Shown here: one piece after another, positions 56,053 through 61,811 of the stretch | Layout: each line of letters starts with the position of its first letter | Numbering within the stretch: position 1 is the stretch's first letter | Source: a virus | Reading direction: 5' to 3' (one strand) | Length of the DNA stretch: 64,000 nt | IMG/VR virus record: IMGVR_UViG_3300026521_000003 | Location: 62,001-126,000 of that record | Position numbers and translations under genes: made by a program | Notes under the pieces: model-generated | The model's database searches: none | The model's input: the letters and a program-made list of their open reading frames with translations, nothing else | Told to the model about the DNA's origin: nothing

Positions 56053-57360
56053 TTACAAATATGAATATTCAATCTCAGAAATTATTTCATTTGTTTCAAT
56101 AATTTTGAACTGTCCACCCATATCTTTAAATTTATTTATCTTATTTATAGTTGATTCAATTGTTTCACTAATATTAGATTTATTAATAGGTGAATATAAT
56201 AAATATTGATTCGAGATAGAAACAATAGGCTGACCTTCAAAATTTTCCATAACTAAGACTTTATGTTTATTTGATTTTGGAATATCCAATGTCGATATAA
56301 TTTCTTTAAATAGATTATCAACAACAATCATATTCTCAATTTCTAAATTTTCAGATTTAAGATTACGTATAATTGTTTCTAAATATTTTTCTTCATTCTT
56401 AATTTCAGTTCCAAAAATTTTTGCTTGTTCTAATCTCTTTTTTGCTAAAGAGCGATATTTCATTTCAATAGGGGATAATTCAATTGCAGGTAGTTCTTCA
56501 TTAGAAATAATTTTTGTATCTAAATCATACGGTATATTATCGGTATAATCAACAAGTATTGATTTTTGTGATTCAAGTTTAAATTTAACAGCAACAACTT
56601 CAAGTTTTTTATCTATTCGTTCTTTAATAACCTCATAAGTTACTTTAATATCCGATTTATCATTAACTTCTTGTACGGCTTTTTTCAATATATCTCTGTT
56701 AAAATTAGCCCATTTTTGTAAAGATGGTTTATTAACAATATCAACATTTAAAATAGCTTTTAATATATTTATCTCTATACGTTTTTCATAAGACCCAACA
56801 TAATCTTTTAAAAGTTCATATAATAGTTTTGAATATTTCGATTTTAATCCCACTTGAATCTGTAATGAAAATTTAGTATAATAATTTTTTATATTTAAAA
56901 ACATTATTAATAATTCTGGTTCTATCCAGACTTTAACTCTTTTACTTGTAGTTTGTTTATCCTTTGACCAAGCTATTTTTCTTAGAAAATGAAATAATAT
57001 CGATTCTTGAGTTTTATTTTTATGTAATACATTTGTTAAAACTTGTATTTTGGATATTTCATGTAAATTTTTTATTATTTCATTATAATACCCATTTTTA
57101 TATTTACCCAGTACATCCGAAATCGACTGCAAATTAATTTCAAAATGATTTAGTGACGCCCATTCATAAATCTCTTCTTCTGTTAATTCTTGCTGCAACA
57201 TAATATCAGAAATAAAGAAAAACATAGTCCCAATTAAATCAACTTGAATTGGTGTTAAAACAGCAAATTCTTCTTTTATAAAATCTTTGTAATATAAAAC
57301 TTGACATAATTCTGATGGTTTTCTTAATTCTAAATTTTTTGTTACTTCTTTTTTACTCAT
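56053..57360 (-). CDS. rep: Plasmid-type replication initiator (Rep_3 / RepB-RepE-like)
   Basis: The start at 57360 (MSKKEVTKNLE, 435 aa) follows an AAGGTTGAA ribosome site; a longer frame to 57405 would cover the promoter. Residues about 10-260 show the double winged-helix pattern of Rep_3 initiators: LTPIQVDLIGTMFFFISDI, a helix with KVWIEPELLIMFL, KYSKLLYELLKDYVGSYEKR, then NFNRDILKKAVQEVNDKSDI and KVTYEVIKERIDKKLEVVAV. These proteins bind iterons and open the origin of theta-replicating plasmids. Four iteron-like repeats lie upstream. The C-terminal 170 residues are helical and unassigned. I know of no such initiator in the T4 core set. Confidence 0.8.
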   Translation of the reverse strand: MSKKEVTKNLELRKPSELCQVLYYKDFIKEEFAVLTPIQVDLIGTMFFFISDIMLQQELTEEEIYEWASLNHFEINLQSISDVLGKYKNGYYNEIIKNLHEISKIQVLTNVLHKNKTQESILFHFLRKIAWSKDKQTTSKRVKVWIEPELLIMFLNIKNYYTKFSLQIQVGLKSKYSKLLYELLKDYVGSYEKRIEINILKAILNVDIVNKPSLQKWANFNRDILKKAVQEVNDKSDIKVTYEVIKERIDKKLEVVAVKFKLESQKSILVDYTDNIPYDLDTKIISNEELPAIELSPIEMKYRSLAKKRLEQAKIFGTEIKNEEKYLETIIRNLKSENLEIENMIVVDNLFKEIISTLDIPKSNKHKVLVMENFEGQPIVSISNQYLLYSPINKSNISETIESTINKINKFKDMGGQFKIIETNEIISEIEYSYL

Positions 57361-57382
57361 ATGTTCAACCTTATTTTTTTTG

Positions 57383-57390
57383 TATTTATT
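57383..57390 (-). promoter_or_regulatory. Late-promoter-like AATAAATA for rep
   Basis: It lies 22 bases upstream of the rep start and 27 bases from iteron 1, so Rep binding could repress it. Confidence 0.45.
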
Positions 57391-57410
57391 AGATTTTACA
57401 ATCACAATTA

Positions 57411-57438
57411 AAATTACACAATCTAATCACAGTTTTTT
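57411..57438 (+). repeat. Iteron 1
   Basis: The core CACAATCTAATCACAG (from 57417) is followed by a T-run. It is identical over 28 bases to iteron 2. It lies 50 bases upstream of the rep start, next to its promoter motif. Confidence 0.8.
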
Positions 57439-57500
57439 ATAGTTTATTTAATATTTTTAAATTTTATACCTATATTTATATGACATTTTATTTTAATTTT

Positions 57501-57528
57501 AAATTACACAATCTAATCACAGTTTTTT
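57501..57528 (+). repeat. Iteron 2
   Basis: An exact 28-base copy of iteron 1, placed 90 bases away in the same orientation. Confidence 0.8.
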
Positions 57529-57564
57529 CTTTTTGGTTCTTAATATATTAAATTATATCAAAAA

Positions 57565-57837
57565 TAACTCAAAAAATAATTCTTAGTTAAATTTAATGTA
57601 GTTTATAGCTATTTTTCAGAAGAAAAAAACTTAAAAAAAAAATCTTAGTTATGGCATTTTTTATTTTATTTATATTTTTATATAATTTATTCTTATATAT
57701 TGAACTCATTAATAGTCAATAAAATATATAATAAACTATATTTTAACTAAAAAATATTTTTTGAGTTATCTAAAAAACTAAAAATAAATACGTAAGTTAA
57801 AATTTAAAAATTTAACTAAGAATTATTTTTTGAGTTA
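57565..57837. repeat. 30-bp perfect inverted repeat, arms about 210 bp apart
   Basis: Arm 57565-57594 is the exact reverse complement of arm 57808-57837 (core AACTCAAAAAATAATTCTTA). A related unit in the second orientation lies at 57741-57768, and a partial one in the first near 57635-57653. All copies are AT-rich and flank the centre of the putative origin. Confidence 0.75.
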
Positions 57838-57892
57838 AAAAATGGGTTTTTTGCCGCATTTTAAGACTATAAAAATAAGGTGTTTTTTTTGG

Positions 57893-57909
57893 TTCACAAT
57901 CTAATCACG
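57893..57909 (+). repeat. Iteron 3 (shorter match)
   Basis: CACAATCTAATCAC starts at 57895, then diverges (GAAAA instead of AGTTT). It is 22 bases before iteron 4, the usual two-helical-turn spacing of plasmid iterons. Confidence 0.7.
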
Positions 57910-57914
57910 AAAAC

Positions 57915-57939
57915 TACACAATCTAATCACAGTTTTTTT
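57915..57939 (+). repeat. Iteron 4
   Basis: CACAATCTAATCACAG starts at 57917 and is followed by seven T. Same orientation as the other three copies. Confidence 0.8.
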
Positions 57940-58120
57940 CAAGGGTCACTGGGTAACACTATATTTTCTCGTGCAAAACTAGGACTGTACAAAATACAAA
58001 TAGAATAAAGGATAGATAAATAGCCTTCGGCATGAAATAGATTGGTTGATCTAAATCATCTTTATTTAATCTGATTCATCTTTACACACTACCTATTAAA
58101 ATTCCTATTAAAATTAATTG

Positions 58121-58126
58121 TATAAT
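58121..58126 (+). promoter_or_regulatory. Possible sigma70-type -10 for gp47
   Basis: TATAAT lies 31 bases before the gp47 ATG. No late octamer precedes this gene, so host-type early transcription is plausible. No clear -35 was found. Confidence 0.35.
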
Positions 58127-58157
58127 TAAAACAAAATTATTAAATTAAAGGTAATTT

Positions 58158-61160: not shown

Positions 61161-61811
61161 ATGAAATTTTCAGATCTAGATTTAGATATACCTTCTAAAT
61201 TGTCAAATGATATTAGGTATAAATTTATAAGAGCATCGGTTAAAAATAATGGGAATTATCAACCTCATCCAGCAGGTATATATCTATATAAGAATATTCC
61301 TCAATTTAATAAAATTGCTGTAAATGATTATAAATTTATGGAAGATAATAATTATCAAAAAATTGATATTTTGAATAATACATTTTTAGATAATATTACA
61401 AATGATGAAATGGACAAATTTATAGATTTAATTGAAATGGAAGAAATTGATTGGAAAAAGCTTTATACATATGATGAACCTTATCAACTTAGTAAATATC
61501 CATCAATATTAAAAGAATTTCAAGTTTCATCAGTATTTGATATTGCAATGGTTTTATCTATAATAAGACCTGGATCAATTAAAAAATATGATGCTTTAAA
61601 AAAAGCTATGAAAACAAAAAAAAAGATTAGTAAAGATATAAAGTATTATGATATTTTAAAAGACACGTATGGAGTTCCAATTTTTAATGAACAATATAAA
61701 GAGATAGGTATTGATGATGGTGTGTATAGATATAAAAAACCACACGCTATCGGTTATGCCTATGTATTGTTGATTGATTTTTTAAAAAAAAGTCATAAAA
61801 TTAAGGAATAA
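61161..61811 (+). CDS. Mini DNA polymerase III alpha (DnaE)-like protein lacking the catalytic centre
   Basis: The 216-aa product keeps several DnaE palm/fingers landmarks in the right order. HPAGIYLY (36-43) matches the HAAGV region; KIDILNNT (67-74) matches the K.DFLGL motif; FDIAMVLSIIRPGS (126-139) matches the ALxRPGP motif; DILKDTYGVPIFNEQ (164-178) matches the YGVxxYQEQ motif; KPHAIGYAYVLL (193-204) matches KSHAAAYALxxY. The catalytic PDxDxDF block is absent, and about 80 residues carrying the third Asp region between the last two motifs are missing. It is probably not an active polymerase. It may bind primer-template or act as a decoy or clamp partner. It follows gp46 by 33 bases. Confidence 0.65.
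   Translation: MKFSDLDLDIPSKLSNDIRYKFIRASVKNNGNYQPHPAGIYLYKNIPQFNKIAVNDYKFMEDNNYQKIDILNNTFLDNITNDEMDKFIDLIEMEEIDWKKLYTYDEPYQLSKYPSILKEFQVSSVFDIAMVLSIIRPGSIKKYDALKKAMKTKKKISKDIKYYDILKDTYGVPIFNEQYKEIGIDDGVYRYKKPHAIGYAYVLLIDFLKKSHKIKE

Follow-up and report, generated by a model that had tools for sequence, protein, structure and literature searches.

Phage T4 replicates from origins such as oriA and oriG and in a recombination-dependent manner, and to our knowledge it is mostly unknown how replication starts in the other large T4-type phages. In iteron-type plasmid origins, DnaA boxes are common but not universal. Among phages, the mycobacterial extrachromosomal prophages are described as RepA-dependent, temperate and maintained as plasmids (PMC7157519). 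We found no description of a Rep_3-iteron origin in T4-type jumbo phages in the literature searched (most subscription journals excluded). Here, we report such a module in a 64,000-nucleotide stretch (the window), i.e., positions 62,001-126,000 of a 289,880-base IMG/VR virus record, labelled G000. A rep gene and the divergently oriented gp47 are separated by a gene-free gap that contains direct repeats (iterons). The features, in window coordinates, are as follows.

56053-57360, minus strand: Rep_3-family replication initiator (Rep), 435 aa from an ATG start (ORF map, Pfam, PHROG, PDB, AlphaFold)
57361-58157, no strand: gene-free region between divergent rep and gp47, putative origin (ORF map; strand-corrected GC-skew break)
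57417-57432, plus strand: iteron 1, CACAATCTAATCACAG, 72 bp before the rep ATG in the rep direction, a position kept in L005
57507-57522, plus strand: iteron 2, CACAATCTAATCACAG, 162 bp before rep
57565-57837, no strand: proposed unwinding element, an AT-rich stretch flanked by the iteron pairs and containing four 25-bp TAACTCAAAAAATAATTCTTAGTTA-type boxes
57895-57910, plus strand: iteron 3, CACAATCTAATCACGA, with two changes at its end (CACGA instead of CACAG)
57917-57932, plus strand: iteron 4, CACAATCTAATCACAG, 22 bp after iteron 3

The rep ORF can alternatively be read as 450 aa from a GTG. A profile search of the 435-aa protein against Pfam gave Rep3_N (2.2e-11) and Rep3_C (4.6e-9), both over the curated cutoffs, confirming the Rep_3 identity that a sequence-only reading of this DNA had proposed. 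The two winged-helix domains, WH1 (Rep3_N) and WH2 (Rep3_C), make up residues ~20-265, and the C-terminal ~170 aa match no Pfam family. The best PHROG match is phrog_4402, replication initiation protein (2.6e-17), and the sequence matches in the PDB are the R6K pi protein (2nra, 4.9e-6) and F RepE (0.0019). Structure prediction with three Rep sequences gave a pLDDT of 34; with nine phage Reps, AlphaFold produced a usable core (~residues 20-265) of moderate to good quality, pLDDT mostly 70-90. When this model was compared with the PDB by Foldseek, all 45 significant matches were RepE (E 5e-10 to 1e-7, probability 1.00), among them structures bound to iteron duplex and to single-stranded DUE DNA, and the next unrelated match was at 0.62. 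RepE is thus the only significant PDB fold for the predicted core. Please note that the TM on target is about 0.54 and the whole-model confidence is only moderate.

The rep-gp47 gap is 797 bp long with a GC content of 19%. It holds four copies of CACAATCTAATCAC in one orientation, two of them exactly 22 bp apart (57895, 57917) as had been noticed from the letters, and there are zero copies elsewhere in the 290-kb record. All 16 bases are matched by three of the four, the exception being the copy at 57895. The 14-base iteron core occurs four times in the record, always in this gap, and a reversed control pattern 0 times. In 500 dinucleotide shuffles of the gap, 14-mers with at least 2 G/C never rose above 2 copies, compared with the observed 4; for 13-mers, the gap comes first of the 22 G000 gaps of at least 250 bp (4 copies versus at most 2). 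On the shuffles and the comparison with all other G000 gaps, the iteron repetition is not due to chance.

Between the two iteron pairs, the 25-bp boxes are arranged as two forward (57565, 57627) and two reversed (57744, 57813) copies, with a fifth, weaker one at 57775. No further box with 6 or fewer mismatches is present elsewhere in the 64-kb window, and boxes related to this type are also seen in two relatives, L032 and L036, described below. DnaA boxes are not enriched in the gap, which has one site with 2 or fewer mismatches against 3 expected by chance. A conserved hairpin-like sequence, GCCTTCGGC, lies between the iterons and gp47 (window 58023-58031); at a similar place L032 has GCCGTTGGC and L036 has two TTCG-type hairpins. 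No RNA element was found in the gap, and the GCCTTCGGC hairpin has no Rfam match.

Comparison with relatives links the iterons to Rep. In G001 (L005), whose Rep is 96% identical, the four iterons and their spacings (22, 388, 90) are unchanged, with drifted sequence between them. A gp46 search led to L032 (Rep 62% identical) and L036 (Rep 61%), both with the same gene neighbours as G000. The gap of L032 has four copies of CACAAACGAATCAC at spacings of 22, 383 and 102, and that of L036 has five copies of CACAAGACTTACAC or CACAAAG[CT]TTACAC at spacings of 22, 232, 197 and 101. All three relatives share the layout, i.e., a 22-bp pair plus a pair 90-102 bp apart, and in L032 and L036 every iteron copy differs from the G000 copies with the layout kept. 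The entire iteron set has changed jointly with the Rep protein, as expected if Rep reads the iterons. A scan of related phages for rep plus iterons, which the sequence-only reading had put forward as a check, found a private upstream array of 3-5 direct repeats at all eight distinct phage Rep loci (8/8), with steps mostly of 22 or 30-32 bp and a repeat sequence that differs between arrays. Ranked among all gaps of its genome, the rep gap comes first of 22 in G000, and the two rep gaps of the relative G411 come first and second of 44. At least one Rep is present in every large clade record searched (G000, G001, G002, G411, G412). Judged from these alignments, direct repeats specific to the cognate Rep lie beside rep as they do in iteron origins, and binding of Rep to them is predicted.

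The position of the module is not fixed. A tail-sheath profile search identified two more members of the clade, G411 (306 kb) and G412, in which the tail gene and gp47 stand in the G000 order with only about 195 bp between them, without Rep or iterons. G411 has two Reps, 50% identical to each other and with different iterons: Rep B (66.7-67.8 kb) is located between portal and the structural gene that follows it, with three repeats of 32 bp on its upstream side, and the second (185.8 kb) is beside a terminase fragment with four repeats at 31, 31 and 28 bp. In a further record, a Rep with four 32-bp repeats lies directly ahead of topoisomerase I; the corresponding site of G000 is empty. The arrays at Rep in two other records comprise three and four repeats, and additional Rep loci adjoin other homologues of G000 genes. 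Four syntenic positions of the module were mapped, and positions filled in one phage are empty in another. From these gene orders, rep and its iterons evidently move together as a cassette whose site sequence and position change against an otherwise constant gene order. The integrated block suggested earlier, if read as obligate linkage to gp47, gp46 and HU, does not survive this comparison, since the 306-kb relative has the same three genes in order without Rep and carries its two Reps elsewhere. At the 186-kb locus of G411, the initial codons of the rep gene overlap with an iteron copy in inverted orientation (L173:1459-1500), as would be expected for an autorepression operator.

Nucleotide skew gave a separate line of evidence. 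The minimum of the raw cumulative GC skew is at 115-120 kb of G000, and we rejected it as origin evidence on its own because gene direction flips at the same place. Since the genes diverge at the site, strand correction matters; third-position GC skew was therefore regressed on gene strand and genome side, and the break was scanned across the genome. In G000 the best break of the GC3 regression is at 120.0 kb, with the iterons at 119.4-119.9 kb. Four-fold sites place it at 119.7-121.7 kb (window 57.7-59.7 kb), with a drop of 61.3 versus at most 48.2 in 300 permutations. From left to right of the break, the median skew goes from -0.10 to +0.25 for plus genes and from -0.24 to +0.14 for minus genes, and in a bootstrap of genes 86% of the breaks fall at 110-130 kb. 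The best break of G001 is at 133.2-134.2 kb and its iterons are at 133.5-134.0 kb; its drop did not beat all permutations, and the two results are not independent because the phages are close relatives. G002 was without a skew signal (46 genes, p=0.89). Third-position AT skew did not point to any origin. The G411 break at 58-61 kb (bootstrap mostly 40-70 kb) is only a loose fit to Rep B at 66.7-68.6 kb, the interval including both the Rep B gap and the empty site, and there is no skew break at the second G411 Rep (185.6 kb). The strand-corrected break within about 2 kb of the G000 iterons is separate, indirect evidence for a bidirectional origin.

Concerning ancestry, a tree with Campylobacterota and named plasmid Reps placed the six phage Reps included in one clade (100/100) with a stem of 1.87; the neighbours of this clade are weakly supported, and identity to plasmid Reps is only about 24-37%, over part of the protein. 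A single phage clade on a long stem speaks against recent capture of rep from a plasmid, and the captured replicon of the sequence-only reading is abandoned in that sense. By this tree, Rep appears to be long resident in these phages, and plasmid capture, if any, would be old. By tblastn, Rep had no match in 50,697 phage and 72,556 plasmid records at E 0.01 and 0.001, and a looser query returned only a weak C. difficile phage match. A scan of bacterial genome contigs found no Rep relative, and in 397 Campylobacterota genomes the Rep_3 proteins detected by a profile search were all remote. The iteron 16-mer was also found in six other IMG/VR contigs; these are single matches with no Rep by tblastn and were taken as chance.

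The phage itself is T4-type in part. By phmmer, G000 has homologues of gp13, 15, 17, 18, 20, 21, 23, gp44, gp46/47, gp55, RNase H and topoisomerase subunits, so that T4-type capsid (gp23), portal (gp20), protease (gp21), sheath (gp18) and terminase (gp17) are all represented. The same search gave no match to T4 gp43, gp41, gp61, UvsX, gp32 or gp59, where distant homologues could escape and the record is possibly incomplete, and Pfam gave no DnaB_C or RecA domain in G000. The description of the genome as T4-like stands for head and tail genes, a T4 replisome not being detected, and the contrast drawn earlier with T4 replication is weaker than stated, since T4 polymerase, helicase, primase and UvsX were not detected here. 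Different portions of bacterial DNA polymerase III alpha are matched by two short ORFs (window 61161-61811 and G000:142544-143050). The latter ORF is kept at unchanged length in G001 and G002, and jumbo phages of the 121Q/BF type have short proteins like these. This pair is a candidate split or remnant polymerase.

Other G000 genes touch on the host. A CheY-like response regulator has its best relatives in Campylobacterota CheY (60%), which together with the low GC suggests a Campylobacterota host. Another ORF starts with MADILSQDEIDRLLG, resembling the CheY-binding tip of FliM (the two ORFs are at G000:33590-33964 and G000:224104-224448), and an ORF with flagellin N and C domains is among those scanned; from these ORFs, the phage may interfere with host motility. 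The large terminase gene is in two pieces around a DUF7487 ORF (G000:275194-280170), and gp39 and NAD ligase are split in much the same way; with intein-domain matches, this suggests many intervening elements. A TnpB/Cas12f-like protein, an Apyc1-like anti-Pycsar protein, a KptA-type RNA 2'-phosphotransferase, two ClpP-like proteins and ankyrin-repeat proteins are also present (G000:265791-266981 and other ORFs).

The proposal of a Rep_3 initiator with iterons that act as a replication origin is upheld by the sequence and fold match, the arrays at every relative's Rep and the skew break. With the joint change of iterons and Rep and the relocation of the module also observed, we consider it likely that this Rep-iteron module functions as an origin and is the principal one in the G000-type phage. 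As the main bidirectional origin of this T4-type jumbo phage clade, it would act like an iteron plasmid origin. By analogy with RepE and pi, Rep monomers would bind the iterons via the two winged-helix domains, and the bound pairs flanking the ~390-bp AT-rich stretch would open it, possibly aided by HU, for which a phage HU-like gene is nearby. The replicative helicase would then be loaded, most likely host DnaB because no phage DnaB-type helicase was found, and forks would proceed from there in both directions to the ends of the genome. Rep probably also represses rep through the iterons 72 and 162 bp ahead of it, again as in RepE and pi, and recombination based on gp46/47 may replace origin use late in infection. 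How far the phage relies on the host replisome is uncertain, given the phage's gp44-like clamp loader and Pol III alpha-like fragments. More tentatively, it is possible that the clade does without T4 origin and replisome logic and that a relocatable Rep_3-iteron cassette hands the genome to the host replisome, where two replicons with different iteron specificities in some members would let co-infecting relatives avoid or impose plasmid-style incompatibility.

Rep_3 proteins with iterons are a typical plasmid feature, and RepA-type initiators have been described for extrachromosomal prophages (PMC7157519); Rep and iterons might thus only maintain an extrachromosomal prophage, with lytic replication starting elsewhere. 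We regard this as decidedly unlikely, since Pfam scans of most G000 ORFs of 120 aa or more contain no ParA/ParB, integrase or repressor family and, judging from the skew break, most replication cycles start at the iterons. The plasmid-like state offered as an option in the sequence-only reading is likewise unsupported, as no partition or integrase genes were seen in these scans. The four syntenic positions with reciprocal empty sites, the two G411 paralogs with different iterons and the absence of a skew break at the second G411 Rep would also suit a selfish or parasitic cassette hopping between phages, which is not the main origin and perhaps excludes or outcompetes related phages or plasmids by iteron incompatibility. 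That every large clade record searched has at least one Rep, that position and layout persist in relatives whose Rep has diverged to 61%, and that the skew breaks at the module in G000 and G001 make it unlikely. Both readings keep some weight owing to the relocations and the second Rep of G411.

If Rep were only a transcriptional regulator binding operator repeats between divergent rep and gp47 promoters, the location of the repeats between divergent genes and of iterons close to the rep start would be explained, and repression of their own promoters by RepE-type proteins is established. However, in G411 and L200 the arrays lie upstream of rep genes at different loci with different neighbours, which leaves rep itself as what they have in common, and the skew break would be left unexplained; we give this very little credence. 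All sequences are metagenomic, but no result favours an assembly artefact, i.e., a plasmid fragment joined to a phage contig. The same junctions in the independent records G000, G001, G002 and G003 refute it, and further Rep loci adjoin other homologues of G000 genes, leaving its probability negligible.

Under the preferred reading, a main Rep-iteron origin, one locus would offer a defined initiator, predicted binding sites and relatives with different iteron sequences, so that simple plasmid and binding assays could address initiator specificity, copy control and competition among co-infecting phages. It would also mean that a plasmid-type origin has resided for long in large T4-type phages, its site sequence and position changing while the other gene order stays.

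Among known systems, the RepA-dependent mycobacterial prophages share a phage-borne RepA-like initiator and a protein-mediated origin with the G000 type; they are temperate and maintained as plasmids, and the scans of G000 show no lysogeny or partition genes. T4 differs in lacking a phrog_4402 Rep and in having gp43, gp41, gp61, UvsX, gp32 and gp59, none of which phmmer detected in G000. The RaK2/121Q/BF/Atu_ph07-type jumbo phages resemble G000 in their large T4-type genomes and in ~200-aa and ~170-aa proteins matching parts of Pol III alpha; unlike G000, none of the ten reference phages has phrog_4402, including T4, a Campylobacter T4-like phage and seven jumbo phages with such short Pol III-like proteins or of that type (121Q, BF, RAS14, Atu_ph07, XaC1, SCTP-2, RaK2). 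Rep_3 iteron plasmids (F RepE, R6K pi) do not share the 290-306-kb T4-type phage context, the G000-type arrangement of iterons in two pairs about 390 bp apart or the extra C-terminal ~170 aa outside Pfam, and the phage module has neither enriched DnaA boxes nor detected partition genes. They share with it an initiator with two winged-helix domains, direct repeats preceding rep at ~22 or 31-32-bp steps, an AT-rich stretch beside the repeats and iterons near the rep start. By domain and predicted fold, Rep is a member of Rep_3, and its origin, although not classed as a plasmid origin, would work like that of an iteron plasmid.
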